Shown here: positions 4,071-25,335 of the stretch, one piece after another
Layout: each line of letters starts with the position of its first letter
How positions within the stretch are numbered: position 1 is the stretch's first letter
From: Methylophaga sp.
GTDB taxonomy: Bacteria > Pseudomonadota > Gammaproteobacteria > Nitrosococcales > Methylophagaceae
Length of the DNA: 38,230 nt
Direction of reading: 5' to 3'
Assembly: GCA_011053005.1 (NCBI GenBank)
Contig: DRHW01000014.1
Span: forward strand, 1 to 38,230
Notes under the pieces: model-generated
Told to the model about the DNA's origin: nothing
The model's database searches: none
Seen by the model: only the letters and a program-made list of their open reading frames with translations
Program-made: the position numbers and the translations under genes

Positions 4071-4274
4071 TGTCTTTAAATTAATGATTAGCTCCTCGCC
4101 TTTGAAGCTTACAGGCTCAACAGTAAGCCCTGCTCAAACTAAAAACTTATAGTCGGAAAACGTTACTTTTCTGTGTAGAATATGCACCATTAGTCTCTAT
4201 CATTGAGTGTAATTAGTGATAAAACGTTAGAAAATCATTCTATTCTCGTAAACATTTCAGGCAATCTTAAATTC

Positions 4275-4580
4275 ATGCATAACGACCAAAAAACTACCGA
4301 CACTACTTCTTCATCAACTAGCACTGAAGAACTACAACGTGAAGTCGCTGAGCTGATGGTTGAATGTTTAAACCTAGAAGTAGCCGCAGACCAAATTTTA
4401 GCTGACGATCCCTTATATGAAGACGGATTAGGTTTAGATTCAATTGATGTATTAGAAGTCGCTTTAGTCGTGTCTAAGCGTTATGGATTACAACTACGTG
4501 ATGACAACGTAGATAATCAGCATATTTTTAGTTCTTTACGTAACCTATCAGACTATATTGCAAGTAAGAGAACCCTTTAA
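4275..4580 (+). CDS. Acyl carrier protein of the aryl polyene pathway
   Basis: Carries the growing aryl polyenoyl chain on a phosphopantetheine arm. The 101-residue product from ATG 4275 has the ACP helical core from about residue 19 and the attachment motif LGLDSIDVLE with Ser56. The frame is open upstream to a TTG at 4203, but that start has no ribosome site and adds a non-ACP-like leader. Residues 7-18 are a Thr/Ser-rich, probably disordered tail. The stop codon abuts the next ATG (4581). APE clusters usually encode two ACPs (ApeE and ApeF); only this one is found here. Confidence 0.88.
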   Translation: MHNDQKTTDTTSSSTSTEELQREVAELMVECLNLEVAADQILADDPLYEDGLGLDSIDVLEVALVVSKRYGLQLRDDNVDNQHIFSSLRNLSDYIASKRTL

Positions 4581-5216
4581 ATGCCCCTTCGCATCCTACG
4601 ATGGATGGGTATAGCAGGGCTTTTGATTGCTTATGCTGTATTAGCACATTACACCAATCAATCAGTACACAACGGTCATTTAGGCGCATTAGTGGCCATT
4701 ACCCCCACAGCCTTTATATTACTGGTGGCAAGTAAACAATCCATTTGGCGATTTAGCCTGATGCTAATAGTGCTGACAATTGCTTTATGGTTCGGTTGGG
4801 CTACACTGACCAACAATTTCTGGTATGTATATTGGCTGCAAGATGCAGGTTTACAATTTGCACTATTTGTTACATTTGGTCGGACATTAATCGCTAACAG
4901 GCAGCCGCTATGTACACGGTTTGCTGAAATGGTACATTCAGGTAGTTTATCTCCACAGCACTATGTCTATACAAGACAAATCACCTTCGCTTGGACACTA
5001 TTTTTTGCCCTAATGACGATAATTTCTACGCTACTTTTTTTCTTTGCACCACTAACCACATGGTCTCTTTTTGCTAATTTTCTAACCTTACCTTTAATCG
5101 CTTTAATGTTTATTGTTGAATACGGCGTACGGATCTGGGTCTTGCCCGATTCACGACAAAACAATATTTTTGATGCTATAAAAGCCTATAAAAATGACCC
5201 TGAGCGGCGCTTTTAA
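4581..5216 (+). CDS. COG4648-type membrane protein of APE clusters
   Basis: An integral membrane protein of 211 residues with about five to six hydrophobic segments (near 7-24, 32-50, 55-75, 85-100, 130-152, 160-180), ending in a charged tail. It resembles the COG4648 family that recurs between the ACP and AMP-ligase genes in aryl polyene clusters (called ApeG in some systems). Its biochemical role is unknown. It starts directly after the ACP stop codon with no gap, indicating coupled translation. The family call rests on position, size and hydropathy. Confidence 0.7.
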   Translation: MPLRILRWMGIAGLLIAYAVLAHYTNQSVHNGHLGALVAITPTAFILLVASKQSIWRFSLMLIVLTIALWFGWATLTNNFWYVYWLQDAGLQFALFVTFGRTLIANRQPLCTRFAEMVHSGSLSPQHYVYTRQITFAWTLFFALMTIISTLLFFFAPLTTWSLFANFLTLPLIALMFIVEYGVRIWVLPDSRQNNIFDAIKAYKNDPERRF

Positions 5217-5232
5217 TTGTTATTGAACTAAT

Positions 5233-6588
5233 ATGACAACACTGCCGCTAGTATCTCATCTAACACCTGATTCAATCATCGCTTGGCGTAACCGAGACGG
5301 CGATGCTGTGACATTGCATCAGTTCTTAGCTGATGTAAACCAGCTTGTATCGTTATTCCCTGCTGGTAGTCATATGCTCAATATGTGCAGCGATCGCTAT
5401 CATTTTAGTGTTGGATTAGCCGCAGCAATCGTCGCTAATAAAGTTAGCTTATTGCCCTCTACACATACGCCAGAAGTCATTCGTCAAATTAAAGCTTTCG
5501 CACCTGATGTATTTTGCTTAACAGATAATGAAAACTGCAATGTCGATCTCCCCCAATTAGCATTTCCCTTAGCCCAAAAAAATGATACTTCGCTCTTTGC
5601 TATTCCTCAGATTAATCGCGAACAATGTGTTGCCATTGTTTTTACTTCGGGTTCGACGGGTCACCCAAAACCTCACCCAAAAACATGGGCCGCATTAGTC
5701 AGTAGTATTCAAGCTCAAGCATTACGAATTGGGCTTCAACATCATGCTGGCACAACGTTAATTAGCACGGTGCCACCACAGCATATGTATGGTTTAGAAT
5801 CGAGCGTATTAATCGCTTGGTTCACTGGCAATGCCTTGTGTGATGCTCAACCATTTTATCCTGCAGATGTATGCCAAACGCTGAGTGCTGTGCCTTCACC
5901 CCGTGTGCTCGTTTCCTCTCCAGTACATCTTCGTACATTACTTGATGCCGATCTAATTATTCCCAAAGTCGACCAGATTCTTTCTGCCACCGCACCGCTT
6001 ACGATTGAGCTTGCACAGAAAGTTGAATCACATTGTGACGCCCCGCTATTTGAAATTTACGGCAGTACTGAAACAGGGCTAATCGCAACGCGTCGTTCAT
6101 CGCAAACAGATAAATGGCAATTATTGCCGGAGATACATCTCATTGCTAAAGATGAAAAAGTGTATGCCATGGGTGGCCACATTAATACATTAACGATTAT
6201 GAATGATGTGTTTGATGCAATAACAAAAACAGACTTTTTATTACGAGGGCGGGTTGACGATATGATCAATATCGCAGGCAGACGTCACTCTTTAGCCAGT
6301 CTTAATCATATACTTAATTCTATTCCTGGCGTTATTGATGGTGCGTTTTATATGCCAGATGAAAATGATAATAGTAGTACCACCACACGTTTATCAGCCT
6401 GCGTTGTGGCACCAGAACTTAATGCCACACAGTTACTAAGCATGTTACGCGACTTTATAGCGCCTGTTTTTCTACCTCGACCACTATTATTCATTGATAA
6501 ACTCCCTCGAAATGAAACAGGAAAATTATCACGCGCTTCGTTACACGATTTATTTCACTCCCCTCACTTAGGCAAGTCTAATGAATAA
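5233..6588 (+). CDS. Aryl-ACP ligase (AMP-forming; ApeH/XanA2-like)
   Basis: Adenylate-forming enzyme expected to activate a hydroxybenzoate with ATP and load it on the pathway ACP as polyketide starter. The 451-residue protein has the phosphate-binding loop IVFTSGSTGHPK (135-146), the EIYGSTETG motif (274-282), a hinge-region RGRVDDMINIAGRR, and a C-terminal NETGKLSR with the catalytic Lys. It is shorter than typical acyl-CoA synthetases, as are the APE ligases. The chorismatase gene elsewhere in this window (22438-23556) supplies the likely substrate, 3- or 4-hydroxybenzoate. It overlaps the dehydratase gene by 8 bases. Confidence 0.88.
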   Translation: MTTLPLVSHLTPDSIIAWRNRDGDAVTLHQFLADVNQLVSLFPAGSHMLNMCSDRYHFSVGLAAAIVANKVSLLPSTHTPEVIRQIKAFAPDVFCLTDNENCNVDLPQLAFPLAQKNDTSLFAIPQINREQCVAIVFTSGSTGHPKPHPKTWAALVSSIQAQALRIGLQHHAGTTLISTVPPQHMYGLESSVLIAWFTGNALCDAQPFYPADVCQTLSAVPSPRVLVSSPVHLRTLLDADLIIPKVDQILSATAPLTIELAQKVESHCDAPLFEIYGSTETGLIATRRSSQTDKWQLLPEIHLIAKDEKVYAMGGHINTLTIMNDVFDAITKTDFLLRGRVDDMINIAGRRHSLASLNHILNSIPGVIDGAFYMPDENDNSSTTTRLSACVVAPELNATQLLSMLRDFIAPVFLPRPLLFIDKLPRNETGKLSRASLHDLFHSPHLGKSNE

Positions 6589-6898
6589 TGTCACGCACTT
6601 GACAATTCCCGCCGATCATCCCGCTTTTGCAGGCCATTTTCCCGGCAATCCGACTGTTCCTGGTGTCGTATTATTGGATATCGCTTTACATGCCATTACC
6701 ACCGCGACGGGCACAGACTTAGCCGTGTGTGAAATTAGCACTGTTAAATTTCTAAGCCCCGTATCGCCAAATGAACCAATCTCGATAGAACACACCTTAT
6801 TACCAACAGGGGCAATTCGCTTTGAAATAGTCTGTGGTACAAGGAAAATCGCCACCGGCAGAGTCATTAACCACTCTAGTAAAAGCACAACATTGTAA
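6581..6898 (+). CDS. FabZ-like hotdog dehydratase (ApeI-like)
   Basis: A small (105 aa) single-hotdog 3-hydroxyacyl-ACP dehydratase. It shows the FabZ signature HPAFAGHFPGNPTVPGV with His19. The acidic partner is Asp33 in VLLDIAL, where FabZ has Glu and FabA has Asp. It is shorter than FabZ (about 150 aa), as in ApeI proteins. Expected role: one of the two dehydration activities that leave the all-trans conjugated chain. It overlaps the ligase by 8 bases and the acyltransferase start by one base (TAATG). Confidence 0.85.
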   Translation: MNNVTHLTIPADHPAFAGHFPGNPTVPGVVLLDIALHAITTATGTDLAVCEISTVKFLSPVSPNEPISIEHTLLPTGAIRFEIVCGTRKIATGRVINHSSKSTTL

Positions 6899-7839
6899 TG
6901 AGTAACACTCGCAAAGCGACCAATACAGATTGGGCCAATACGCCAGAGCGTAGCAATATGCTTTTGCTAAGGATAATGACCTGGATTTCATTACATCTAG
7001 GTCGTCGTTTTTCACGTGTAGTGCTTCACTTAATTGCTAGCTATTTTTTACTCTTTTCTCCCACTAGCCGCGCCGCATCACGCGATTATCTGACACGCAT
7101 CTTTGGTTACACACCGCGTTGGCGTGATCTGTATCGACATTTTTTTACTTTTGCTTCGACCATTCATGACCGGCTTTATTTAGTTAATCGGCGGTTTGAT
7201 TTATTTGATTTTGACGTGCATGGCATAGAGATGCTGCATAAATTACTTGATGAAGGTAATGGCTTATTTTTGTTGGGCGCTCATTTAGGTAGTTTCGAAG
7301 TGATTAACTCTCTGGCCGTTAAACATACCGACTTACGCGTTGCCATGTTGATGTATCAAGAAAATGCTCAAAAGATAAATGCGACTTTGAATGCCATTAA
7401 TCCGAATATGACTCATGACATTATTGGACTTGGCCATATTGACTCAATGATACAAGTCAGTGAGCGTTTAGATGATGGTTATATGGTGGGTATATTAGCT
7501 GATCGTAGTCCTGCTATGAATGATGCACATTATGCAGTCGAGATCCTTGGTAGTGATGTAAACTTACCCAGTGGCCCACTACGAATGGCTGCTTTATTGA
7601 AACGGCCTGTGGTATTTATGACTGGACTTTATTTAGGCGGCAATCGCTACGCAATTCATTTCGATACGTTGGCAGATTTTTCTAATATTAGCCGGGCTGA
7701 TCGCCCTGCTGCGTTGCATGCGGCAAGTCATCGATATGCGGAACTCATCAATCAATATTGTCACAAAGCGCCTTATAACTGGTTCAATTTTTTTGATTTT
7801 TGGAAGTCATCACCTGCCAAAGGATCCAATAAACCATGA
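6898..7839 (+). CDS. LpxL/HtrB-family acyltransferase
   Basis: A 313-residue inner-membrane acyltransferase of the lipid A acyltransferase family. A hydrophobic stretch lies at about 38-55, and the catalytic HX4E motif is visible as GAHLGSFE (His129, Glu134). In many APE clusters this domain is the C-terminal half of a glycosyltransferase-acyltransferase fusion (ApeJ). Here it stands alone, and a free family 2 glycosyltransferase lies on the opposite strand at 20858-21622. A likely role is moving the polyenoyl or a fatty acyl chain onto the lipid anchor. It overlaps the LolA-like gene by 4 bases. Confidence 0.82.
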   Translation: MSNTRKATNTDWANTPERSNMLLLRIMTWISLHLGRRFSRVVLHLIASYFLLFSPTSRAASRDYLTRIFGYTPRWRDLYRHFFTFASTIHDRLYLVNRRFDLFDFDVHGIEMLHKLLDEGNGLFLLGAHLGSFEVINSLAVKHTDLRVAMLMYQENAQKINATLNAINPNMTHDIIGLGHIDSMIQVSERLDDGYMVGILADRSPAMNDAHYAVEILGSDVNLPSGPLRMAALLKRPVVFMTGLYLGGNRYAIHFDTLADFSNISRADRPAALHAASHRYAELINQYCHKAPYNWFNFFDFWKSSPAKGSNKP

Positions 7840-8495
7840 TGTCATTCGCGAATTTTTTCCACTCTGTTTTGTCGACTATTTCATTCGTTCGACCCAAAAA
7901 ACTAATCATATTGTTCATGCTGATTCCTGCATTAAGTCATGCCGATGAGTGGAATATTAAGCAATTAATGACTGCGTTAGCACAAGTACAAACTCGCCAT
8001 GCTTTATTTATTGAAAGAAAATCGATCGCTCTTCTTACTGTTCCAGTCGAGTCCTCTGGAGAGTTGATTTATACAGCGCCCAATCATCTTGTAAAAAGAA
8101 CACTTAAGCCTAAACGTGAATCAATGGTCTTAGATGAAGACACACTCAACATTGAACTCAGCACCCAACAAAATTTGCCTATTGGTGGCAAGCAAACGAG
8201 CAAAAAAAATTATCAACTACAATTACAAGATTATCCTGAAATAGCAGTCTTTATTGATAGCATTCGGGGCACATTAGCAGGCGATCTTCCGGCGCTACAA
8301 AAAAACTATCAGCTCAGCTTGATTGGCAATATCGATGATTGGACTTTATCGCTCAACCCCACTAATGAAAAGATGCAAGCGCTGGTCAAAAATATTGATA
8401 TTTCAGGTGAACATAATGCCATTCATCGTATCGAAATTAATCAAACAGATGGTGATAGTTCACTGATGCTCATTGAACAAAAGCTAACGCCCTAA
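7836..8495 (+). CDS. LolA-like periplasmic carrier protein (ApeL-like)
   Basis: Exported protein of 219 residues. The N-terminus has basic residues (RPKK, about 19-22), a hydrophobic core and a signal peptidase site near ALSHA/DEW (about 36/37). The rest resembles the LolA/LolB half-barrel: LMTALAQVQTRHALFIERK, then SGELIYTAPNHLVKRT and a C-terminal IHRIEINQTDGDSS strand. LolA-like proteins precede MMPL exporters in APE clusters and are thought to carry the hydrophobic product across the periplasm. Start codons at 7836 and 7839 are adjacent; both overlap the upstream stop region. Confidence 0.8.
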   Translation: MMSFANFFHSVLSTISFVRPKKLIILFMLIPALSHADEWNIKQLMTALAQVQTRHALFIERKSIALLTVPVESSGELIYTAPNHLVKRTLKPKRESMVLDEDTLNIELSTQQNLPIGGKQTSKKNYQLQLQDYPEIAVFIDSIRGTLAGDLPALQKNYQLSLIGNIDDWTLSLNPTNEKMQALVKNIDISGEHNAIHRIEINQTDGDSSLMLIEQKLTP

Positions 8496-10837
8496 TGCAG
8501 GGTTTTCTACAAAAAGGGCGAATGGCCATACTGTTATGGTTAGTCTTTATAATCGGCTGTGGCATTGTCATCAGCCGAAGTCAATTCACTACTGACTTAT
8601 CTGCGTTTTTACCGCGTAATCCGACACCCGCTCAGCAATTATTATTAGAGCAAATTCACGATGGCCTCGCTTCGCGACTAATCTTAGTGGCCATTGAAGG
8701 CGCTGATCCGGCTACCCATGCTGCATTATCAAAACAAATAGCTAAAACATTACGCACCAACCCAGCGTTTGTCAGTGTCAATAATGGCGAACCGGTAACC
8801 ACTGAGCATGATCAATCTTATTTATTTAATAATCGTTATTTACTAAGTCCAGCAGTGACACCAGAACGGTTTACTGTTGAAGGTTTGCATGCTGCTATCA
8901 ATGACAGTATTACTTTACTCACATCGCCTGCCGGACTAATGCTTAAATCGCTATTACCACATGATCCTACGGGTGAAATGGTGCAACTTATTTCTCAACT
9001 AAATAGTGGAAAGACGCCGCAAACTTTTGATAACGTTTGGGTTTCACCTGATAAATCACGTGCTTTATTATTAATTCAAACCAACGCATCAGGTGATAAT
9101 ACCGATGCCCAACAAGTGGCTATGTCCGCCATTCAGCATGCTTTTGATAACGCCGCCAGCCATACATCTGCCACTCAATTATTAATGACAGGGCCCGGCG
9201 TATTTTCAGTGACTGCGCGTGACACAATCAAAAGCCAGGTCAGCCGATTAGCGATTATTAGCATTGTGTTAATTGCAAGCTTATTACTACTTGTCTATCG
9301 ATCCTTTAGTGCCTTGTTATTAGGATTCTTACCCGTTATGAGTGGTGCTTTGGCGGGTATTGCCTCGGTGAGTCTTGGCTTTGGCTCCGTTCATGGTATT
9401 ACGCTGGGATTTGGTACCGCATTAATCGGTGAAGCGGTTGATTATTCAATTTATTTATTTGTGCAATCAGAGAAAAATAATGGCGATGAACAACAAAACT
9501 GGAGCCAACGATTCTGGCCCACTATTCGTCTTGGTGTATTAACATCAATCTTTGGTTTTTCGTCATTATTATTATCGGGGTTTCCCGGTCTTGCACAGCT
9601 CGGTTTATATTCAATTGCAGGGCTCGTCGTTGCAGCGACTGTTACACGTTTTGTATTACCTCATTTGCTGCCCAATAACTTTCGTGTTCATGACGTAACT
9701 GCAATTGGACTCAGTTTATCTTCACTTGTAAAACACGCCACAAAACTGCGTTGGCCTGCCATCTTATTGCTGATAATTGCATGTGTAGTGCTTATTCAAC
9801 ATCGTGCTGATATATGGGACGACAGTATTTCATCCCTAAGCCCCGTCTCCCAAGCTGAAGTTGATTTGGACACACGTTTACGGGCTGATATGGGCGCGCC
9901 CGATGTGCGATATATGGTTGTCGTATCGGGTGTGAGTCAAGAAGTAGTATTGAAAACTTCTGAACAGGTTGCCTCGCAACTGCAAACGCTGGTAAATAAT
10001 GGCGCACTAGCAGGCTTTGAAAGCCCTAGTCATTATCTACCAAGTACAGAAATGCAACGCACTAGACAAAAGAGCCTGCCAGATCCAAGCACGCTAGCGA
10101 CTAGACTTGCCGATGCAACACAAGATTTACCCGTAAATGCTGAATTATTCAAACCATTCTTAGACGATATTGCCACCGCCAGACATCAACTTTTATTAAC
10201 TACCGCTTCGCTTGCACACACTTCAATGGCGATGGCAGTCGACGCACTACTGATTCAACAAAAAAATCACTGGACGGCCTTATTACCGCTGACCGCACCC
10301 GAAGGTAGCGACATTGACACACATCAAATTCGTGAACTACTCGCCACCGCGAATTTGTCAGGCGTGTTATTTGTAGATATGAAGGCTGAATCTGACAACC
10401 TTTATTCCAGTTATCTCAACGAAGCTATCTTATTATCGCTAGGCGGATTAATAGCGATTATCGGCTTACTGTTATGGGTATTTCGCTCACCTATGCATGT
10501 ACTGCGAGTTATTACCCCGCTTGCAGCAGCAGTTATCACGACAACCGCTGGTCTCGCCATTTTTGGTCAACAATTCATTATTCTGCATCTAGTCGGTTTA
10601 TTACTTGTTGTTGCTGTCGGTTCAAATTACGCATTATTTTTTAATCGTAGCGACACCCTAATTTTGCCACGCACATTAGCCTCGATGTTATTTGCAAACC
10701 TAACAACCGTTGCTGGATTTGGCGTATTAGCCTTTGCCAATGTTGCAGTATTACAAGCAATGGGCGTGACTGTCGCACCCGGTGTTATTCTTGCGTTAAT
10801 TTTTTCAGCTGTTTTCGCCAGAAAATCTCATGTCTAA
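8495..10837 (+). CDS. MMPL/RND-family exporter (ApeM-like)
   Basis: Large (780 aa) inner-membrane transporter with two repeats. Each has a helix, a big periplasmic loop (about 30-250 and 445-640), and a block of five hydrophobic helices (about 252-395 and 645-775). The GEAVDYSIYLF segment in the first block is a typical MMPL helix 4 with its Asp. APE clusters carry one such exporter, inferred to extract the polyene lipid from the inner membrane and pass it to the LolA-like carrier encoded just upstream. The start overlaps the previous stop (TAATG), and the end overlaps the deacetylase gene by 8 bases. Confidence 0.87.
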   Translation: MQGFLQKGRMAILLWLVFIIGCGIVISRSQFTTDLSAFLPRNPTPAQQLLLEQIHDGLASRLILVAIEGADPATHAALSKQIAKTLRTNPAFVSVNNGEPVTTEHDQSYLFNNRYLLSPAVTPERFTVEGLHAAINDSITLLTSPAGLMLKSLLPHDPTGEMVQLISQLNSGKTPQTFDNVWVSPDKSRALLLIQTNASGDNTDAQQVAMSAIQHAFDNAASHTSATQLLMTGPGVFSVTARDTIKSQVSRLAIISIVLIASLLLLVYRSFSALLLGFLPVMSGALAGIASVSLGFGSVHGITLGFGTALIGEAVDYSIYLFVQSEKNNGDEQQNWSQRFWPTIRLGVLTSIFGFSSLLLSGFPGLAQLGLYSIAGLVVAATVTRFVLPHLLPNNFRVHDVTAIGLSLSSLVKHATKLRWPAILLLIIACVVLIQHRADIWDDSISSLSPVSQAEVDLDTRLRADMGAPDVRYMVVVSGVSQEVVLKTSEQVASQLQTLVNNGALAGFESPSHYLPSTEMQRTRQKSLPDPSTLATRLADATQDLPVNAELFKPFLDDIATARHQLLLTTASLAHTSMAMAVDALLIQQKNHWTALLPLTAPEGSDIDTHQIRELLATANLSGVLFVDMKAESDNLYSSYLNEAILLSLGGLIAIIGLLLWVFRSPMHVLRVITPLAAAVITTTAGLAIFGQQFIILHLVGLLLVVAVGSNYALFFNRSDTLILPRTLASMLFANLTTVAGFGVLAFANVAVLQAMGVTVAPGVILALIFSAVFARKSHV

Positions 10838-11639
10838 TCAGTATAGACAATGGCAACCCACATTATTAATTAAAGCGACTGCCGTTTTACATGTAATAGT
10901 TTTGCTAATTTGGCTTGTAATGCCTGAAAAATGGCCATGGTTATTGGCGATTATCATTGCTAATCATATTCTGATTACCGCCATTGGTTTGTGGCCTCGC
11001 AGCCATGCATTAGGCCCTAACTGGACACAATTACCACCTGCTGCTCGCATACGAAATGAAATAGCGTTAACAATTGATGATGGCCCTGATCCTTTGGTTA
11101 CGCCACTGGTGTTAGATTTACTAGATCACTATGGTATTAAAGCTACATTCTTTTGTATTGCCGAAAAAGCCGAACTTTATCCTGCCTTGTGTCGTGATAT
11201 TGTTCAACGTGGACATAACGTAGAAAATCATAGCCAACAGCATCGTCATTATTTTTCGTTGTTAGGTTATACCGGCATCAAAAACGAAATACAAAAAGCA
11301 CAAGATACACTGACCAATATTACAGGCCAGCGGCCACTTTTTTTCCGCGCGCCGGCCGGTTTACGAAACCCTTTTTTAGATCCTGTACTCACTCATCTAG
11401 AACTCAAACTCGCCACATGGTCTGTTCGTGGTTTTGATACTCGTATTAACAACGCTAAAAGAGTTGAAACTAAATTATTAGCGGGTTTGAAAGCAGGTGC
11501 TATTTTATTGATGCATGATGGTAATGCTGCTCGCACATCACACGGCACGCCGATTATTATTGATGTATTACCTAACTTGTTCAACGCAGCTAAAACACAT
11601 AATCTACATTTTGTTACATTACGACAGGCGCAAATGTAA
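10830..11639 (+). CDS. Membrane-anchored polysaccharide deacetylase (NodB domain)
   Basis: Carbohydrate esterase family 4 type deacetylase, 269 residues. Two hydrophobic helices (about 14-31 and 37-54) are followed by the NodB domain. The metal and catalytic motif TIDDGPDP (81-88, Asp83/Asp84), the metal ligands His134 and His138 in ENHSQQH, and RAPAG (173-177) are all present, so the active site looks intact. The substrate is unknown. In this operon it could remove N-acetyl groups from an amino-sugar anchor of the polyene lipid, which is inference. It lies between the exporter and a PAP2 phosphatase. Confidence 0.83.
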   Translation: MSNQYRQWQPTLLIKATAVLHVIVLLIWLVMPEKWPWLLAIIIANHILITAIGLWPRSHALGPNWTQLPPAARIRNEIALTIDDGPDPLVTPLVLDLLDHYGIKATFFCIAEKAELYPALCRDIVQRGHNVENHSQQHRHYFSLLGYTGIKNEIQKAQDTLTNITGQRPLFFRAPAGLRNPFLDPVLTHLELKLATWSVRGFDTRINNAKRVETKLLAGLKAGAILLMHDGNAARTSHGTPIIIDVLPNLFNAAKTHNLHFVTLRQAQM

Positions 11640-12313
11640 TGCCTATAAATTCTGAACGTGATAATCAGCAAATACCTTGGTATAGCAAAGCATTACAGTT
11701 AATAACACAAGATGTTTTACTTAAATGCTTGGGTACGATGATATTGATTGGGCTGTTTTTTGCCGTGTATTTTTACTTGCTGACTCACCCTGCTTATCCA
11801 GTCACCGTTATGCCAATTAGTTTTGTGGATGAGTTGATTCCATTTCAACCCGCCACTTTACCTATCTACTTATCATTATGGTTTTACGTTTCTCTACCAC
11901 CCGCATTCTTAGCAACGCGCCGTGAGTTATATAACTATGCCTTAGCAATGACGCTCACCAGTATTATAGGCTTTTCTATTTTTTATTTTTGGCCTACAAC
12001 CTTACCCCTTCCTACGCTTGAGTGGCCACAATCTCCTGAAATTGATTTTCTTAAAGGCATTGATGCTGCGGGCAATGCTTGCCCTTCCTTTCATGTCGCG
12101 ACCGCCTTTTTTTCTGGCTGGTGGTTGCACTACTTATTAGGTCGTTTACGAGCACCATTATCCATACAGATCTTTAATTGGTTGTGGTGTATTGCTATTA
12201 TCTATTCCACATTAGCCATACGCCAACACGTTGTTGTAGATGTCATTGGCGGCTTAATACTGGGTGGACTGATGGCTTATCTGTCACTGCAATATCACAA
12301 AAAAACGAGCTAG
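11639..12313 (+). CDS. PAP2-superfamily membrane phosphatase
   Basis: A 224-residue membrane protein with about six hydrophobic helices. PAP2 motifs are visible: CPSFHVA (148-154, His152) and RQHVVVDVIGG (195-205, His197 and Asp201). The first motif (KxxxxxxRP) is not recognisable, as in PAP2-like lipid phosphotransferases. Possible roles are removing a phosphate from a lipid intermediate or transferring a head group. Its TAATG overlap with the deacetylase suggests the two are used together. It is followed by the largest gap inside the operon (about 90 bases). Confidence 0.8.
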   Translation: MPINSERDNQQIPWYSKALQLITQDVLLKCLGTMILIGLFFAVYFYLLTHPAYPVTVMPISFVDELIPFQPATLPIYLSLWFYVSLPPAFLATRRELYNYALAMTLTSIIGFSIFYFWPTTLPLPTLEWPQSPEIDFLKGIDAAGNACPSFHVATAFFSGWWLHYLLGRLRAPLSIQIFNWLWCIAIIYSTLAIRQHVVVDVIGGLILGGLMAYLSLQYHKKTS

Positions 12314-12410
12314 ATCATTATGATAAGTCAAAAAACATCTACATTAAGCTCAACATTGACACCTATAATTTGCTAACATTTCTTCTTAAATTTAAATTGG
12401 TTTGCCTCCA

Positions 12411-15593: not shown

Positions 15594-15749
15594 TTAACCC
15601 CGTTATTGATCTAAATATTAGCAAAATTTAATCGATGCTGTTCCGCATGTTCCGTCTTAACTTTGATATAAACTTACTTGCTTAAGTAATCGACCTAAAC
15701 GATATATGACGTTATTCAAATAGCATCCTTTTCAATCTAAAATAATTAG

Positions 15750-17369: not shown

Positions 17370-17417
17370 ATAGTTATTTAATTTGCTTTTAAGGATAGTT
17401 AAGACTTTAGTACGGTA

Positions 17418-17449
17418 AAAAGGCACTGGCAGGTAGGCCAGTGCCTTTT
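17418..17449 (+). terminator. Rho-independent-type terminator hairpin
   Basis: Perfect 13-base stem (AAAAGGCACTGGC / GCCAGTGCCTTTT) with a 6-base loop AGGTAG, about 48 bases after the receptor remnant. The 3' arm ends in TTTT and the 5' arm starts with AAAA, so it could work in both directions. It would separate the remnant from the intact receptor gene. Confidence 0.85.
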
Positions 17450-17453
17450 GATC

Positions 17454-17466
17454 TGTAAGGCTTACA
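17454..17466. promoter_or_regulatory. Perfect palindrome TGTAAG-N-CTTACA
   Basis: A 13-base symmetric site immediately after the terminator and about 110 bases before the receptor start. Its size and symmetry suit a dimeric regulator, but the motif is not one I can assign. A half-Fur-like ATTATCA overlaps its right side (17466-17472). Confidence 0.35.
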
Positions 17467-17519
17467 TTATCATGAGTCTATAGCATTTAGACTGAGCTAA
17501 ATTGTGGCCGCACTACATT

Positions 17520-17546
17520 TGATAATAATTCTTATTTGCATTATCA
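17520..17546 (+). promoter_or_regulatory. Fur-box-like operator upstream of the TonB receptor
   Basis: Two overlapping 7-1-7 Fur-type sites. TGATAAT-A-ATTCTTA (17520-17534) matches TGATAATnATTATCA at 12 of 14 positions. TTATTTG-C-ATTATCA (17532-17546) matches at 10 of 14. The site lies about 30 bases before the receptor start, where a repressor would cover a promoter; AATAAT at 17524-17529 could be the -10. It implies iron repression of the receptor and PepSY genes. Confidence 0.7.
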
Positions 17547-17576
17547 TGTCGGCTTTATTCAATCTGCTTGGAGGCC

Positions 17577-19700
17577 ATGTTGTCTTTCTCCCATATATCA
17601 AAACGTCTTACCATTGTCCTGCCCTTCTTAATATCTAGCTCCTATTTACATGCTGAAGATGCCATAACACTCGATGACCTTGTCGTATCCTCTACTCGCA
17701 CTGACACAAAACTTAAAGATTCTTCTCAAGTAGTGACGATCATTACGCGCGAACAAATTGAACAGCAACTTAAAATGTCCGCTGACTCATCCCAAGTGCT
17801 TAGTCGCTTAATCCCCTCTTTCACACCTGCCAGACAAAAATTATCCAATGCTGGTGAAACCTTTCGTGGTCGTCCACCTTTATTCTTAATTGATGGCGTG
17901 CCTCAATCAAATCCACTACGTGATACTCAACGTGATGGACATACGATTGATTTATCAATGGTAGAAAAAATTGAAGTCATTCATGGTGCAAGCGCTATTC
18001 ATGGTTTAGGTGCAACAGGCGGTATGATTAACTTCATTACCCGTCGCCCAAGCGGTAATAAGCTCGATCAAGATATTAATGTACAAGTCACTATGCCCAC
18101 TTCTGATATTGGTAGCGATACCTTAGGCTATCGTACAAACTATGGTCTTCGTGGTAGTCAAGATGATTGGGAATACGCATTTGGTATTACCTATGATCAA
18201 CAAGGCATGTATACCGATGCGAATCATCAGTTGATCGGCGTCGATAATACACAAGGCGATACCATGGACTCAAAAAGTTATGATATCTTCGGGAAATTAG
18301 GTTACTGGTTGAATGATGATCAACATGTTGAACTTCAAGTTAATCGTTATCAGTTAAAAGGCAACAATGATTACACAGGAGTAGCTGGTGACCGAAGCAC
18401 TGAAAGGCCTGCCACATCAATTCGAGAAACACCACAGGGTCAAGCATCACACAATCGTGTGTTAACCACTAACTTTAAATACGATGATTATGATCTTGCT
18501 GGTATGCATTTTTCTGCTCAAGCCTACCAACAAAATTTTGAGGCATTATTTGGCATTACCAATTCAGGTACCTTTTTTGATCCGACTTTAGCACCAGATA
18601 GCTTGGATCAATCGCAAGCAACGTCAACTAAAAAAGGGATCAAATTCACCTTAACAAAAGATGACTTACTTGATGACAAACTAAGTCTAACCACAGGTTT
18701 AGATATTTTGCATGACACCACAGAGCAAACATTAGAAAAAACCAATCGAATATGGGTGCCAGAAACGACCTTTAAGAACTATGCACCTTTTTTACAGGCT
18801 CAATATAAACCTATTGACAGTCTCGTATTTAATGCCGGAATTAGGCATGAAAAAGCATCATTAGATGTCGGTAATTTTCGCACGATTTATGCCACTAATG
18901 ATGCCGGTGGTGTTGATGTGCAAGGGGGTGACCCTGATTTCAGCAAGAATCTCTATAATGCAGGCGTCGTGATTTCACCTTTAACATGGCTGAGCGTGTT
19001 TGCTAACTATTCACAAGGTTTTGGTATGCCGGATGTTGGTCGCGTGCTTCGTGCAATCGGTACAGAAAATCAGAATGTTTCAAACTTTTTAAATCTACAA
19101 CCTATCATTACTACCAATAGAGAAATTGGCCTGCGAGTTGATTGGCAACCAGTTGATTTTGAAATGAGCTATTACGAGTCAAATTCTGATTTTGGCTCTC
19201 GTTTAGAAAGAGTGGGCGACGATTATTTCATTCGTCGTGAGAAAACAGAAATTAGTGGTATTGAAACATCTGTGGGTTACCAAGCAACGGAAGACCACCG
19301 ATTAGAACTAAGTTATTCATTAATTCGTGGTCGTTATGACTCAAACGATAATAATGAAACAGACTCTGACTTAGATGCCAGTAACATTCCACCCAATCGC
19401 TTACTGGCTAACTGGAGTGCAAAATGGTCGCCTAAGTGGTCATCATATCTACAAGTCAGTCATAATATGAACCGTAAGTTTGAAAAAATGGGCGTTGAGA
19501 GTGCAAAGTTTGATGGTTATACCTTGGTTGATGCATCACTTTCTCGCAACTTGCCAAAAGGTACACTTAATTTAAGTATCGCCAACTTGCTTAATGAAGA
19601 TTATTTTGATTATTACTCTCAAGCAGCAAATACGCTTGACAATCGCTACTTCAAAGGTCGAGGACGTACGCTTACTTTGGGTTATGCTATAGACTTTTAA
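17577..19700 (+). CDS. TonB-dependent outer membrane receptor (iron/siderophore uptake)
   Basis: Complete outer-membrane receptor of 707 residues from ATG 17577. It has a signal peptide (1-26, cleavage near LHA/ED), a TonB-box-like DDLVVSSTR segment (33-41), a plug domain (about 45-165, with FRGRPPLFLIDGVP and VEKIEVIHGASA), and a 22-strand-type barrel ending in Phe (GYAIDF). GGAGG ends only two bases before this ATG, so TTG 17580 or an upstream TTG (17568) might be used. The Fur-like site upstream and the PepSY gene downstream point to ferric-siderophore uptake; the ligand cannot be read from sequence. Confidence 0.9.
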   Translation: MLSFSHISKRLTIVLPFLISSSYLHAEDAITLDDLVVSSTRTDTKLKDSSQVVTIITREQIEQQLKMSADSSQVLSRLIPSFTPARQKLSNAGETFRGRPPLFLIDGVPQSNPLRDTQRDGHTIDLSMVEKIEVIHGASAIHGLGATGGMINFITRRPSGNKLDQDINVQVTMPTSDIGSDTLGYRTNYGLRGSQDDWEYAFGITYDQQGMYTDANHQLIGVDNTQGDTMDSKSYDIFGKLGYWLNDDQHVELQVNRYQLKGNNDYTGVAGDRSTERPATSIRETPQGQASHNRVLTTNFKYDDYDLAGMHFSAQAYQQNFEALFGITNSGTFFDPTLAPDSLDQSQATSTKKGIKFTLTKDDLLDDKLSLTTGLDILHDTTEQTLEKTNRIWVPETTFKNYAPFLQAQYKPIDSLVFNAGIRHEKASLDVGNFRTIYATNDAGGVDVQGGDPDFSKNLYNAGVVISPLTWLSVFANYSQGFGMPDVGRVLRAIGTENQNVSNFLNLQPIITTNREIGLRVDWQPVDFEMSYYESNSDFGSRLERVGDDYFIRREKTEISGIETSVGYQATEDHRLELSYSLIRGRYDSNDNNETDSDLDASNIPPNRLLANWSAKWSPKWSSYLQVSHNMNRKFEKMGVESAKFDGYTLVDASLSRNLPKGTLNLSIANLLNEDYFDYYSQAANTLDNRYFKGRGRTLTLGYAIDF

Positions 19701-19721
19701 TGGTAGATTTGGCTATTTTCA

Positions 19722-20861
19722 ATGCGTAAATTTTGGATCCAATTTCATCGAATCAGTGGATTGATTTTATTAGTCCCGCTGTTGCTACAAAGCATCAGCG
19801 GGTCAATTATCGTCTTTGATCATGCTATTGATGAATGGCTAAATCCCAGCCTCATTGTCACACATCTACCTAAGGAGAAGCTGGCAGCACTGCCCTTAAT
19901 TCGTGCAGCTACAATCAATGCACTTCCTGACATTGATTATATAAAGTCGCTACGTGCACCACGTAATCAACATGCTGCTTACACGGCATTTGTGCAAATG
20001 AAAAAAACGTCACCACTTTATGCAAAAAAGATGGAAATAATGATCCATCCTTATACTGCAGAAGTGCTAAGTATTCGTGAATGGGGAAGCTATTTCACAT
20101 CGTTTATTTACCTTTTTCACTACACATTCCTGCTTGGCCACAATGCCGAATTAACGCTAGGTTTTCTCGCTATCCTAATGTTAGTTAACGTATTTGTTGG
20201 AATATATTATGGCTGGCCTCGTTCAACTAAAGCATGGAAATGGTTGGTGGCAAAAAATCAAAAAATCACGCCAACAGTAGGTCGTTTACGACGTGCTCAC
20301 ATGCTCGCAGGGCTTATATCATTACCTGTTTTTACCGTGGTTATTATTAGTGGTATTAGTCTTATTTTTCCTAATCAAACAAAGTGGTTATTAGATAGGC
20401 CAGCGAAATTAAATCCGCCAATTCAACAACAAAATAATCCGTCAGTTGATGAAGATTTGTGGCTAAAAAGTGCTAAAAACTATTGGCCAGATAAACAATG
20501 GCAACGTATTAACTTTCCAACCCAACAACGTCCAGCAGTAGAAATACGATTAACAGATGCTAGCGATCCCCGTAAAACATCAGGCAGTAATATGTTGTGG
20601 ATCGATCCTTATACTAATGAAGTAATTGCTCAACAATCTTATCAACCGCTGACGGTACGTCAAAAAACAGCTTTTTGGCTATTTCCACTTCACAATGGTG
20701 AAGCCTTTGGTTTAACCGGACGGATAATCATATTTATCAGCGGCTTGCTGACGACATTACTCTCTATTGCTGGTGGCTGGCTATGGTATAAACGAAAATT
20801 TCGGCCCCAGAGAAATCAACAACAGCAAAAGACGATGAAGTTAAACTTAAAAGAGCCTTAA
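19722..20861 (+). CDS. PepSY-associated membrane protein (probable ferric-siderophore reductase type)
   Basis: A 379-residue protein with about four membrane helices (near 10-32, 125-162, 197-215, 338-360) and large periplasmic loops; this is the PepSY-TM (COG3182) layout. Conserved helix-associated histidines are visible (His9 in FHRISG, His133 and His140 in LFHYTFLLGH, His193 in RRAHMLAG), plausible haem ligands as in FoxB/FegB-like proteins. These proteins commonly sit beside TonB receptors and are linked to iron release from siderophores. The gene starts 21 bases after the receptor. Its end overlaps the end of the convergent glycosyltransferase gene by 4 bases. Confidence 0.83.
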   Translation: MRKFWIQFHRISGLILLVPLLLQSISGSIIVFDHAIDEWLNPSLIVTHLPKEKLAALPLIRAATINALPDIDYIKSLRAPRNQHAAYTAFVQMKKTSPLYAKKMEIMIHPYTAEVLSIREWGSYFTSFIYLFHYTFLLGHNAELTLGFLAILMLVNVFVGIYYGWPRSTKAWKWLVAKNQKITPTVGRLRRAHMLAGLISLPVFTVVIISGISLIFPNQTKWLLDRPAKLNPPIQQQNNPSVDEDLWLKSAKNYWPDKQWQRINFPTQQRPAVEIRLTDASDPRKTSGSNMLWIDPYTNEVIAQQSYQPLTVRQKTAFWLFPLHNGEAFGLTGRIIIFISGLLTTLLSIAGGWLWYKRKFRPQRNQQQQKTMKLNLKEP

Positions 20862-21622
20862 ACCCGTCCGGTTAAACGTCTAAACAACAACACTGGCAGC
20901 CGTAGTAAAAAGCCAACAAATAAGCGGCTATGCATCCAGCTTAATAACACGTTGTCACGCAGATATTGAAAATGGGAAACACCGCCGTCTTCCACACTAA
21001 AATATCGAACTTTAGCGGCCAAATTGATCGGCTTGACGCCATACCAACAAAGACGTACTACCGCTTCTGGATCAAAATCAAAATGACGCATCCATCGTTG
21101 ACCTGCCATCACTTTTTTGAGTGGTTCAATAGGATAAATACGAAAACCAAATAAGGAGTCGCCTATGCCCGCCCATAAGGTTTCTAAATTTGCCCACCAA
21201 TTTGATAGTTGCCGCCCTTTCACCCTCAACATCGGGGCGCTGGCATCAAATACCGGCTCACCCAATATCATTGCTTCAGGTTGCTTGATAGAAGCTTCCA
21301 TAAAGGTTGGAATTCGATCTTCAGGATGTTGACCATCTGAATCCATTGTTAGTACATGAGTAAAACCCGCTGAGGATGCTTCCTCTAGCCCGCGCAATAC
21401 CGCAGCACCCTTGCCTTGATTAGTAGGCAGTACGATTACTCTTAAGCTCTTATCTGCTCTTGCCATCGCTAACAAACCTTCAGTACTACCATCTGTACTG
21501 CCATCAATCACAACCCAAACTGGCGACCAATATTGCAGCGCAGCGCGTACCGTATCGTAAACTTTAACCCCAGGGTTATAACTAGGAATCAGTACTAAAT
21601 GGGTCGTTGAAGGTGTTGTCAT
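20858..21622 (-). CDS. Family 2 glycosyltransferase
   Basis: GT-A fold transferase of 254 residues: nucleotide-sugar region IPSYNPG (12-18), VVIDGSTDGS (37-46), NQGKGAA (68-74) and the metal-binding DSDGQHPED (94-102). The C-terminus (FVGFLLRLPVLLFRRL) is hydrophobic and basic, suggesting membrane attachment. It resembles the glycosyltransferase half of the ApeJ fusion of other APE clusters. The matching acyltransferase half is free-standing at 6898-7839. Last gene of the minus-strand operon, 14 bases after the PlsC-type acyltransferase. Probable role: adding a sugar or lipid-linked head group to the pigment. Confidence 0.83.
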   Translation of the reverse strand: MTTPSTTHLVLIPSYNPGVKVYDTVRAALQYWSPVWVVIDGSTDGSTEGLLAMARADKSLRVIVLPTNQGKGAAVLRGLEEASSAGFTHVLTMDSDGQHPEDRIPTFMEASIKQPEAMILGEPVFDASAPMLRVKGRQLSNWWANLETLWAGIGDSLFGFRIYPIEPLKKVMAGQRWMRHFDFDPEAVVRLCWYGVKPINLAAKVRYFSVEDGGVSHFQYLRDNVLLSWMHSRLFVGFLLRLPVLLFRRLTGRV

Positions 21623-21636
21623 AAATGAGTGCTTAA

Positions 21637-22434
21637 TTAAAGTTCACGTTCAGGCTGCGTAGGCAGTGAATTTGTTGGATAAAAGGCTGAGCCATTAATA
21701 AGCTCTTCCTTGAAATATTGATCAAGTTCGTTCATAAACCGCTTAGTATGCTGTGGTGGTTCAAATCGTTTTCCCAAACGTACCCGATAATGTATCGGCA
21801 TCGTGGGTTTACGAAATAATGACCAACCTTTACTTAAATACAATGAGTCCGTTTCTATCAGTATGGTCTGTACTGGTACCTGAACATGATGAGCAATTAA
21901 GCCCACACTACCGGTAAATAGTTTCACAGGATTGGTCGTTGTTCGAGTACCTTCTGGAAACAACAATAAATGACTTTTAGAGGAAAAATCATTTTCTGCC
22001 ATTTGCATCATATAACGTATTGTTTTATTACTGATGTAACGAGCTAGTCGCGCGCCCGCACCCAAAAAAACATTACTCAATAACTCAGCCTTCAGCACAC
22101 ACGATATATTAGGTAGCCGTGAAATAATCATTACCGCATCTAATAAACAAGGATGATTAGGCGCTAAAATCAATGCTGATTCACCGGCTAGTGAATCAAG
22201 GGCTTTTAAATCAAAACTAAAACGGCCAGATAAACTAAGCACCGCTAGATAAAACCGAAATGACATGGTAATCACATAACGTCCTAGCACTCTGCCTTGT
22301 GAACCAGGCACCAAGGGATATAGTACTAAGGCAATCGGCGTCCATATCAAACACATTGTGCCAAGCAATATCAGCCCTAGATAGAGCACCAGATATTCGT
22401 AAATATTCAATAATACATCTAATACGTTACGCAT
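21637..22434 (-). CDS. PlsC-type (AGPAT-family) acyltransferase
   Basis: A 265-residue membrane-bound acyltransferase. A long hydrophobic N-terminal region (about 8-42) precedes the HX4D motif in APNHPCLLD (His94, Asp99) and the FPEGTR motif (159-164). These are the signatures of 1-acyl-glycerol-3-phosphate acyltransferase relatives. Its placement between chorismatase and glycosyltransferase genes suggests it acylates an intermediate or anchor of the aryl polyene rather than serving general phospholipid synthesis. It begins 3 bases after the chorismatase stop. Confidence 0.83.
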   Translation of the reverse strand: MRNVLDVLLNIYEYLVLYLGLILLGTMCLIWTPIALVLYPLVPGSQGRVLGRYVITMSFRFYLAVLSLSGRFSFDLKALDSLAGESALILAPNHPCLLDAVMIISRLPNISCVLKAELLSNVFLGAGARLARYISNKTIRYMMQMAENDFSSKSHLLLFPEGTRTTTNPVKLFTGSVGLIAHHVQVPVQTILIETDSLYLSKGWSLFRKPTMPIHYRVRLGKRFEPPQHTKRFMNELDQYFKEELINGSAFYPTNSLPTQPEREL

Positions 22435-22437
22435 AAC

Positions 22438-23556
22438 TTAATTCAGATGGTCATTCATTAACGTATTAGCATCACTGGAAAATGCTGCTGTCGAATGACC
22501 CGCCGTGGCTTCAATTTCGACTAATAAATCTTGACGACAAACATCCGCCTGTAAATAAACGGCATTCACAGTATCTCCAACACGTCGTTTTAATTCATTA
22601 CGCACTAGGTCTAAATCCTTACTATGACGTATATACACCGTGTAATGTAGCGTCGATAGGTCAAACTTAGGTTCGTTGAATTGACGATTTACTTGGGTAA
22701 TTACCGCTTTAATATTCTCAATCGTTTCGTTTGTTTGAGCAATAACATCACCATGGTGCAATGTTTGATGCCCAACAATGCTTGCCGTACCTGATAAAAA
22801 CAAGATATCGTCGTCACCCAGTTTAACTAAGCTAGCACGGGAAAATGTCGGGCTACGAGGACCGTATTGTTCTGGATATTTATAGGCACTAATTTGACGT
22901 GGATTCTCTATGCTTTGCGGCACAACACGACCAGCTAAAAAGGCAATCATTAATGAATTTTGGCTTGAAGCCTCGTCAGAAGTTACCGCGCCAAAACCTA
23001 ATGCACAAGCTGCTGGTACATTACCTTCAACATCACGTTTGTGGGATAAAAAAGCATCTTGTCGACCCAGATTAAATTGTAAATAACGCTCTAATCCAAA
23101 ACTGTCACCATTAATGTCAGCCATATAATTACGAACGCGAAATAAATAAGGAAATGACTGCAGTTCAAGCAAACAAAATATTTGATCATATGCAGATTCT
23201 GTTGCTTGCTGGAGCGGGGTTTTATCGGAATTAGATTGAAACAAGACTTCGGAAAGTTCAATCACGCCAAAAATAAGATCATCGTTATAACGATACTTAA
23301 TCTGCTGATACTGGCCTGATGTAGGGAAATTAGCGCCATTGGCATCGGTAAACCATACGTCGCAAATTGAATCGCCATCATCTAAGCGCTTCATTGGAAC
23401 GGATGACACAGGGATATTCTGATCTGCGTTAATATTCACCACATTATCAGCATAATATTGAACGCCTAACACACTGTTCGCCCAATGTTGGGAATGATTC
23501 ATATACTCTGAAATTGGCAGCTTTATCGCCTGCAAATTACACCTTTTATCCCCCAT
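22438..23556 (-). CDS. Chorismatase, FkbO/Hyg5/XanB2 family (hydroxybenzoate synthase)
   Basis: Soluble enzyme of 372 residues expected to cleave chorismate to a hydroxybenzoate plus pyruvate. XanB2 makes 3- and 4-hydroxybenzoate for xanthomonadin and ubiquinone; FkbO forms a dihydroxycyclohexadiene acid instead. Family motifs are clear: FRVRNYMADIN (about 139-149), YGPRSPTFSRASL (231-243), FLSGTASIVGH (253-263) and the C-terminal CRQDLLVEIEA (340-350) with the catalytic-region Glu. I use ATG 23556, which overlaps the halogenase stop (TGATG), rather than the TTG one codon upstream. Which isomer is made cannot be decided by eye. The nearby aryl-ACP ligase is the obvious consumer. Confidence 0.87.
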   Translation of the reverse strand: MGDKRCNLQAIKLPISEYMNHSQHWANSVLGVQYYADNVVNINADQNIPVSSVPMKRLDDGDSICDVWFTDANGANFPTSGQYQQIKYRYNDDLIFGVIELSEVLFQSNSDKTPLQQATESAYDQIFCLLELQSFPYLFRVRNYMADINGDSFGLERYLQFNLGRQDAFLSHKRDVEGNVPAACALGFGAVTSDEASSQNSLMIAFLAGRVVPQSIENPRQISAYKYPEQYGPRSPTFSRASLVKLGDDDILFLSGTASIVGHQTLHHGDVIAQTNETIENIKAVITQVNRQFNEPKFDLSTLHYTVYIRHSKDLDLVRNELKRRVGDTVNAVYLQADVCRQDLLVEIEATAGHSTAAFSSDANTLMNDHLN

Positions 23557-24914
23557 CAACTCACCTTTTTCTCTTGTTTTTCGTTCATCGCCTCCGCGAC
23601 AACTTGGATATTAGATTTTCGCATTTTCCATGCTTTAAATGTGCGTTTCATATTGAGTAGTGAATTGACATAATAAATGCCTCTGAATATACGCAGTGGA
23701 CCACGAATATCTGTTCTTCCGAACACATCACCTGCTAACACTGATAATACGGCCTCTTTTACCCGAAATACATTTTTGGGTCCCATAAATAAATCACGTA
23801 ATGCTGGGTTGGTTATGCGGTAAATAAACCATGAAAATTCTTTCGGGCCAATTTTCATTGCTTTATCGAATTTTTTTAATGCCGCTTTGGCTTGTTTAGG
23901 ATTACGAAGGCATTGATCAACCGTCTCAGCACCCACAAAAGCACTTTGCATAGCCAGTAATACGCCCGATGAAAATACCGGATCAATAAAACTATAAGCA
24001 TCGCCTAATAATAAATAGTTGCTGCCGTGACTACGATCACATTGATAAGCAAAGTTACCCGTGGCTTCGACTGCTGAAGTAAGTTGGGCATTTTTTAATC
24101 GTACATTTAATGGGGCACAGAGTTCAATCGTTTCCTGTAAAAACTGTTCTAATGATTTGTTTTTACGTGTTTTTAAATAATAAGGCCATATAACCGCGCC
24201 AATACTTGTTGTGCCATCAGCAAGAGGAATTAGCCAAAACCAACCATGATCAAACCAATAAAGCGTGATATGACCGGCAGCCTTGCCTTCATGACGTTCC
24301 ACTTCTGAAAAATGGCCATAGATCGCAGCACTATTATGTTTTTTATTACGTTTCTTAGCTTTAAATTGATTACCGAGAAACGTGTCACGGCCAGAAGCAT
24401 CTAAAACAAAACGAGCACGTACTGTTTCAAGATGGCCGTCATCATGACTCGCCGTTACTTCTGCGCCAGTATTATCATCTAGAAAAACGACATCTTGTAC
24501 CTGACAGCCTTCGACCACACGTGCATTTTTACGACTGGCATTACGAATCAATATTTCATCAAATTCTGAACGTCGAACTTGATAAGCCATCGGCATTGAT
24601 TTATCTAGAGCGCCTGCAAACTCGTAAACTTGCTGATTATTATGCCAAGGCGAAACAAATTCTGCTCCCCATTTTTCCATACCAATGGCACGAACTTGTT
24701 CCGCTACACCTAGTTTTTCTAATAACGGTAAATTAGCAGGTAATAAAGATTCGCCAATATGAAAACGCGGGTGATGTGCCTTTTCTAGCAAAGTAACGGC
24801 ATAACCTTTATCAGCTAATAATGCTGCGGCACTTGAACCTGCAGGACCTCCACCAATTATTAATACATCACAATCAGATGTCGAAGTAGCGGATGATGTT
24901 GAAAGCGAATTCAT
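23556..24914 (-). CDS. Flavin-dependent halogenase
   Basis: A 452-residue FAD enzyme with the halogenase signatures: GGGPAG dinucleotide fold (21-26), FHIGESLLP (51-59), Lys81 in MEKWGAEF at the position of the catalytic Lys, the diagnostic WxWxIP as WFWLIP (225-230), and GDAYSFIDPVFSSG (304-317). The FHIGESLLP form is shared with halogenases acting on phenolic or carrier-bound substrates. Xanthomonas pigment clusters carry a related gene and their pigments are brominated, so the aryl ring of the polyene is the likely substrate. First gene of a four-gene minus-strand operon. A non-halogenating FAD oxygenase of the same superfamily is the main alternative. Confidence 0.85.
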   Translation of the reverse strand: MNSLSTSSATSTSDCDVLIIGGGPAGSSAAALLADKGYAVTLLEKAHHPRFHIGESLLPANLPLLEKLGVAEQVRAIGMEKWGAEFVSPWHNNQQVYEFAGALDKSMPMAYQVRRSEFDEILIRNASRKNARVVEGCQVQDVVFLDDNTGAEVTASHDDGHLETVRARFVLDASGRDTFLGNQFKAKKRNKKHNSAAIYGHFSEVERHEGKAAGHITLYWFDHGWFWLIPLADGTTSIGAVIWPYYLKTRKNKSLEQFLQETIELCAPLNVRLKNAQLTSAVEATGNFAYQCDRSHGSNYLLLGDAYSFIDPVFSSGVLLAMQSAFVGAETVDQCLRNPKQAKAALKKFDKAMKIGPKEFSWFIYRITNPALRDLFMGPKNVFRVKEAVLSVLAGDVFGRTDIRGPLRIFRGIYYVNSLLNMKRTFKAWKMRKSNIQVVAEAMNEKQEKKVS

Positions 24915-25292: not shown

Positions 25293-25302
25293 TTGGTGCA
25301 GG

Positions 25303-25308: not shown

Positions 25309-25335
25309 GCATATTATTGTTCATGAACAGCCAAA

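Follow-up and report, generated by a model that had tools for sequence, protein, structure and literature searches.

A xanthomonadin/arcuflavin-type aryl polyene gene cluster, probably acquired horizontally, in a Methylophaga genome

Introduction

Among the closest described counterparts of the locus studied here is the arcuflavin cluster of Azoarcus BH72, which carries the same gene set as arcA-arcL and arcM-arcX (PMC3949708). The locus lies in a 38,230-nucleotide stretch of Methylophaga sp. DNA (assembly GCA_011053005.1, contig DRHW01000014.1), called the window below, and is composed of a plus-strand aryl polyene (APE) core operon and an opposed minus-strand operon with a halogenase gene. 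The block is very probably a xanthomonadin/arcuflavin-type APE cluster, with TonB-receptor and PepSY genes between its operons, and it was probably acquired horizontally. Its placement as an ordinary member of an already known kind, the xanthomonadin-type pigment clusters, is well supported.

Insertion mutants of arcK (ketosynthase, KS) and arcT (ligase) in Azoarcus are colourless, ArcB makes 3- and 4-hydroxybenzoic acid (HBA), and ArcT acts on 3-HBA (PMC3949708). Similar clusters have been named for Dechloromonas, Variovorax and Sideroxydans (Gallionellales) (PMC3949708). The Lysobacter pigment needs the KS and a partner similar to a chain-length factor (CLF), and the Xanthomonas clusters have halogenase genes (PMC3691225). 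In E. coli, ApeD and ApeJ were proposed for anchoring and ApeL, ApeM and ApeN for transport (PMC8253772). No publication naming both "aryl polyene" and "Methylophaga" was found.

Results and Discussion

Gene Content of the Two Operons

Profile searches agreed with the first-pass annotation of this DNA, which had placed an APE core operon on the plus strand and a halogenase, a chorismatase, a PlsC-type acyltransferase and a glycosyltransferase in one operon on the minus strand. The minus-strand operon spans 24914-20858, from the halogenase ATG (24914) to the stop codon of the GT2 glycosyltransferase (20858), and in the order of transcription its first two genes overlap by 4 bases, while the second and third junctions have gaps of 3 and 14 bases. 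The plus-strand operon spans 4203-15593, from the start of the acyl carrier protein (ACP) reading frame to the stop codon of the ketoreductase (KR). The genes are as follows.

23556..24914, minus strand: flavin-dependent halogenase with GESL, Lys81 and WFWLIP (PF04820, 8e-34; best NCBIfam model CmlS, 3e-59, well under its curated cut-off)
22438..23559, minus strand: XanB2/Hyg5-type chorismatase with Gly257 and Cys341 (TIGR04444, 4e-62, 210 bits against a cut-off of 325; PF21168, 3e-26)
21637..22434, minus strand: PlsC-type acyltransferase, ArcD-type (PF01553, 6e-11)
20858..21622, minus strand: GT2 glycosyltransferase, ArcE-type (PF00535, 1e-17; 74% identity to Gallionella locus L072)
4203..4580 (TTG 4203 or ATG 4275), plus strand: ACP (PF00550, 5e-7; NCBIfam PRK09184, 3e-38)
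4581..5216, plus strand: ApeG-like integral membrane protein, named by position and analogy (a homologue adjoins the ACP or ligase gene in many APE loci; no Pfam match, and in NCBIfam just a weak IspZ match far under the cut-off)
5233..6588, plus strand: adenosine monophosphate (AMP)-dependent ligase for aryl starter activation, ArcT/ApeH-type (PF00501, 3e-21; 4-coumarate-CoA-ligase model, 5e-37, under the cut-off)
6581..6898, plus strand: ApeI-like hydroxyacyl-ACP dehydratase (PF22818, 2e-7)
6898..7839, plus strand: LpxL-type acyltransferase (PF03279, 2e-10)
7836..8495, plus strand: LolA-like periplasmic carrier (PF19574, 2e-13; LolA2 flexirubin model, 2e-12, under the cut-off)
8495..10837, plus strand: RND/MMPL exporter, ApeM/ArcP-type (PF03176, 2e-14)
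10830..11639, plus strand: polysaccharide-deacetylase family protein, ArcN-type (PF01522, 2e-27)
11639..12313, plus strand: PAP2 phosphatase family membrane protein (PF01569, 1e-15; same position in Gallionella L072)
12402..13607, plus strand: APE KS with a CSSS motif (NCBIfam PRK09185, 7e-171, above the cut-off)
13574..14401, plus strand: CLF-like KS partner, ArcJ/ORF16-type (PF13723, 6e-23)
14395..14877, plus strand: probable second dehydratase, ArcI-type by position (no match in the Pfam and NCBIfam scans; a homologue in 44/80 of the halogenase loci described below, often between CLF and KR)
14874..15593, plus strand: KR, FabG/ArcH-type (PF13561, 3e-54; PRK05653, 1e-108)

The components of a xanthomonadin/arcuflavin-type cluster were found in the block, namely a type II KS with an adjoining CLF-like partner; the ACP, AMP ligase, KR and ApeI-type dehydratase; acyltransferase, glycosyltransferase, LolA and RND exporter; a XanB2-type chorismatase; and a flavin halogenase, which is usual but not universal in such clusters. 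Azoarcus BH72 has counterparts of the halogenase, XanB2-type chorismatase, acyltransferase, glycosyltransferase, KR, dehydratase, CLF and KS, as well as of the polysaccharide deacetylase, exporter, LolA protein, acyltransferase, dehydratase, AMP ligase and ACP (PMC3949708). Its set is divided between two unlinked loci, whereas both halves lie on one contig in the window with the TonB/PepSY cassette between them; moreover, Azoarcus has the methyltransferase arcM, the outer-membrane protein arcC and a separate dialkylresorcinol cluster, none of which was found in the window (PMC3949708). Lysobacter enzymogenes OH11 shares the type II KS and CLF-like pair, a XanB2 homologue, a LolA-type carrier and exporters, but its cluster is described with no halogenase gene and its pigment as non-brominated (PMC3691225).

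Layout Among Related Loci

Relatives of the halogenase were collected by a GTDB scan with a halogenase alignment, and the best 80 of at least 272 were kept as named loci. GT2 and KR converged in 29/33 informative loci, by a script rule that called for halogenase then GT2 plus any KR-type reductase in view, and the opposed-operon layout is therefore standard. The four minus-strand genes were all matched on the halogenase strand in 23/80 named loci. The set and arrangement of the genes had been regarded as unusual in the first-pass annotation. This view was not sustained by the comparison of the whole block, since opposed operons are common in relatives and the set is published for Azoarcus (PMC3949708). 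Convergent and at times split operons are normal for xanthomonadin-type APE clusters, and hence the split is no sign of novelty.

The nearest locus overall was that of Gallionella sp. UBA6045 (L072), which has the same convergent order and identities of 76% (halogenase), 74% (GT2), 75% (KS) and 80% (KR). It differs from the window in its GT2-KR gap of 0.85 kb, with no TonB/PepSY homologue inside. A Xanthomonas locus (X. arboricola) also has a halogenase gene followed by a chorismatase gene, opposed to homologues of the ACP, LpxL-type acyltransferase, LolA, MMPL, 14395-14877 protein, KR and AMP ligase. However, its halogenase and chorismatase are 46% and 34% identical to those of the window, its gene order is different, and PlsC and GT2 homologues were unmatched in 21 kb. 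In genome G084, the cluster was found on two contigs (loci L184/L052), with the KS on C31 and, on C19, the halogenase operon together with the transport genes.

Co-occurrence of the Two Operons

A class sample of 369 genomes was searched at cut-offs of E<=1e-60 for the halogenase, E<=1e-70 for the APE-type KS and E<=1e-20 for the chorismatase, which gave 35, 82 and 64 matching genomes, respectively. An APE-type KS was present in 35/35 halogenase genomes, which span 30 genera (Fisher p 1.4e-26, a value that overstates the association because related genomes are not independent). The KS cut-off skips FabF types, because the best match of ordinary FabF-type proteins in the genomes checked was 2.9e-53; the weakest KS matches counted (G263, 9e-76; G114, 9e-76 with a partial query; G069, 3e-84) may be other APE subtypes. 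The halogenase and KS shared a contig in 22/35 genomes, with <=25 kb between them in 21 and 329 kb in one (G165). Neighbourhoods were mapped for 21 of the 34 halogenase genomes other than that of the window. Among the 80 named loci, a KS match was in view in 35 (best per-locus identity 42-78%); 44 of the other 45 could be searched genome-wide, and a KS was found elsewhere in 41 of them. The chorismatase was matched in 27/35 halogenase genomes, and a KS in 46/64 chorismatase genomes.

An alternative considered was a product of its own for the minus-strand operon, namely a halogenated hydroxybenzoyl glycolipid with no relation to the polyene. The halogenase operon can indeed sit apart from the KS, at 329 kb in G165 and on another contig in G084. 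Yet the two unlinked arc loci of Azoarcus are both essential for one pigment (PMC3949708), and in the class sample no halogenase genome lacked an APE-type KS (0/35); three named-locus genomes gave no KS match, as described below. A separate glycolipid is thus extremely improbable. That the two operons serve one pathway, as the first-pass annotation had proposed, is strongly supported by the presence of the KS in all 35 halogenase genomes and by the two neighbour loci shared by the halogenase and KS trees. A xanthomonadin-like APE pathway in this lineage outside Xanthomonas is likewise supported.

Origin of the Block

In the halogenase tree (103 rows, quick method), a clade of five rows joined the window to Gallionella L072, the Burkholderiales bin L073, G084 and the proteobacterial bin L076 (Shimodaira-Hasegawa-like approximate likelihood ratio test, SH-aLRT, 99). 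In the KS tree (43 rows, with loci lacking a long KS match in their stretch left out), the clade of the window also had five rows, the others being L072, L073 and two Polaromonas (support 100/99). Many rows of both trees are metagenome bins. The same two nearest betaproteobacterial loci for both halves are expected if the halves moved together. The window MutS is 92% and 90% identical to those of the same-genus genomes G001 and G006. In both, mutS is followed by what we take to be an HtpX-like gene, whereas a tRNA-Lys gene and the APE genes stand there in the window. These sequence comparisons make horizontal gain of the block from a betaproteobacterial source probable, although gene loss in the sister genomes may explain the same pattern.

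Elsewhere in the genus, an APE-type KS was found in two of the 24 other genomes, G005 (49% identity) and G023 (47%). The cluster of G023 (L021, 364-14823) is a different APE cluster, with the chorismatase unmatched and a halogenase-like gene 32% identical, which suggests that APE genes may have entered the genus repeatedly. A short contig of G005 (L011, 1-3160) has homologues of the KR, a 160-amino-acid protein, the CLF, the KS (48-49%) and the MMPL protein, which makes it the third APE core known from the genus here, and a divergent one.

Several observations weigh against a single xanthomonadin/arcuflavin-type pathway of common origin. The trees share just L072 and L073, and the halogenases of the Polaromonas KS neighbours fall in another group; G084, a close neighbour by halogenase, is not in the KS tree, and its KS shows just 59% identity. 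Genome-wide, no KS was matched in 3/44 halogenase genomes (L084, L111 and L122), of which L111 still has the chorismatase, PlsC, GT2 and KR, and L122 the chorismatase, GT2 and KR. No chorismatase match was found in 8/35 halogenase genomes and no KS in 18/64 chorismatase genomes, and the chorismatase alone is therefore no marker of APE. By Pfam, no methyltransferase, ApeK-type thioesterase or second ACP was found in 39/49 window open reading frames of >=80 amino acids, the only part of the genome searched for them. The ring O-methyltransferase, which gave no match in the same scan, is not essential to the type; the Lysobacter cluster is also described without one (PMC3691225). Finally, arcuflavin, a proposed heptaene, is non-brominated though Azoarcus has the halogenase gene arcA (PMC3949708), and caution is needed for this reason in calling the product halogenated.

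Halogenase and Chorismatase Assignments

In PDB, the ten best relatives of the flavoenzyme (E 7e-55 to 6e-40) comprise nine proteins named as halogenases, PltA, ChlB4 or CmlS, the top six among them, and one flavoprotein/dehydrogenase. G54-E55-S56-L57, K81, W225, W227, I229 and P230 were invariant in 18/18 aligned sequences, the window included. GxGxxG, GESL, the catalytic-Lys position and WxWxIP, the motifs of flavin-dependent halogenases, are all present, and the protein is predicted to be such an enzyme. An oxygenase, or an enzyme that does not halogenate in the cell, would leave a non-halogenated aryl polyene as the pigment; the arcuflavin precedent and the oxygenases and reductases among related enzymes of flavin adenine dinucleotide lend this some plausibility, but the invariant motifs and the nine halogenases in PDB argue against it, and it is considered the less likely case.

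Among solved structures, the chorismatase was closest to Hyg5 (3e-38 and 8e-37, two entries), and FkbO followed at 3e-35. In the alignment, Gly257 and Cys341 were shared with Hyg5, and FkbO has Ala at both positions. Gly-231 and Cys-318 of Nat-hyg5 are among the residues of the 3-HBA-forming class, Gly-164 being the third (PMC7170507). By our reading of the alignment, Gly257 and Cys341 appear equivalent to Gly-231 and Cys-318, which places two of the three class residues, and the enzyme would belong to the Hyg5/XanB2 3-HBA-forming class rather than to that of FkbO. It also aligns with the Xanthomonas homologue. Gly and Cys were kept in 8/8 aligned homologues (Xanthomonas, Pseudoxanthomonas, Lysobacter, Gallionella, Dechloromonas, Chromatiaceae and two of family f2), so these positions cannot separate the Hyg5 from the XanB2 type.

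The possibility that the chorismatase mainly feeds ubiquinone synthesis with 4-hydroxybenzoate, its operon position being incidental, was also explored. In the 40 nearest genomes, the chorismatase was present in the window's genome, in the distant G031, which carries a KS and a halogenase as well, and in six genomes of family f2. A Legionella-like host was rejected, since DotI/IcmL gave no match in the window's genome and none in the six f2 genomes. UbiC was matched in the first two and gave no match in 6/6 f2 genomes, and no APE genes were matched in the two f2 chorismatase neighbourhoods examined (L022 and L023, out of six). XanB2, moreover, supplies both pigment and ubiquinone in Xanthomonas (PMC3949708, PMC5069965). 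A ubiquinone role is therefore likely in f2, in contrast with a pigment role in the window. The window's genome has its own UbiC, and ubiquinone need not depend on the chorismatase; the chorismatase was absent from 24/24 other genomes of the genus examined, yet 23/24 have UbiC (the exception is 73% complete); and the chorismatase and halogenase genes share a 4-base overlap within one operon. Ubiquinone supply was rejected as the main role in view of the UbiC of this genome, and it is very unlikely.

Proposed Pathway and Product

The sequence data establish which genes are present, their linkage, their co-occurrence and their phylogenetic placement; the individual reactions, the product and how it is anchored, and the transfer are proposed by analogy with characterised relatives. 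The chorismatase would convert chorismate to 3-hydroxybenzoate, and perhaps 4-hydroxybenzoate too, which the AMP ligase would load onto the ACP. The KS/CLF pair, KR and dehydratases would extend this starter to a conjugated polyene, which the flavin halogenase may halogenate. The acyltransferases and GT2 would join the polyene to a lipid, an anchor suggested by the roles proposed for ApeD and ApeJ, and the RND and LolA proteins would carry the product to the outer membrane. The genes themselves would have come from the betaproteobacterial source, the TonB/PepSY cassette having come to lie between the operons. The product would be a membrane pigment, yellow in colour and of the xanthomonadin family, possibly in halogenated form. 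A more ambitious reading, in which a chemically undescribed halogenated and un-methylated aryl polyene lipid is combined with betaproteobacterial transfer into the genus and a co-regulated TonB/PepSY cassette, is improbable.

Interval Between the Operons and Block Edges

The interval 15750..20861 (plus strand) holds a 5'-truncated TonB-receptor remnant, a second TonB receptor of full length, and a PepSY gene that ends at 20861. The remnant (15750-17369, plus strand) lies directly after the KR gene and is without plug domain and start, its frame being open upstream of the first ATG (15996) to about 15750. No homologue of the TonB/PepSY proteins was matched in the 80 named loci, in stretches of up to 10 kb on each side, and the cassette is apparently not part of the pathway. 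In the related loci, 25/29 convergent intervals were without a window homologue; the exceptions have PAP2, halogenase-like or KS/CLF matches. At 15400-25400, 21 promoter-like sites were found against 31.1 expected, an uninformative scan, and 12 terminator-like sites against 7.8 expected, which were not used as evidence.

A tRNA-Lys(CTT) gene (25217-25292, minus strand) stands between the halogenase gene and mutS. No tRNA was found beside mutS in 10/10 same-genus neighbourhoods scanned, out of 12, and the tRNA-Lys may therefore mark the edge of the acquired block; for 2 of the 12, the genes adjoining mutS were inspected. No second full tRNA-Lys copy was found in the genome, which has one 81% partial match, and the search for direct repeats as island boundaries at 3350-25400 gave just two short pairs of 21 and 23 nt. 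Adjoining the block at 223-3359 (minus strand) are ATP synthase genes (a chain, gene-1-like, epsilon and beta), which we take to resemble an N-type Na+-ATPase operon. At 29678-38223 (minus strand) is an ordinary run of replication and fatty-acid genes (TatD, PilZ, DNA polymerase III delta', thymidylate kinase, YceG, class IV aminotransferase, beta-ketoacyl synthase, SDR reductase, acyl transferase and the C-terminal part of a KAS III).

Conclusion

The 35/35 co-occurrence suggests that members of this halogenase family mark xanthomonadin-type APE clusters well. With the Methylophaga block, a widespread pigment pathway gains one more example, probably acquired by horizontal transfer.

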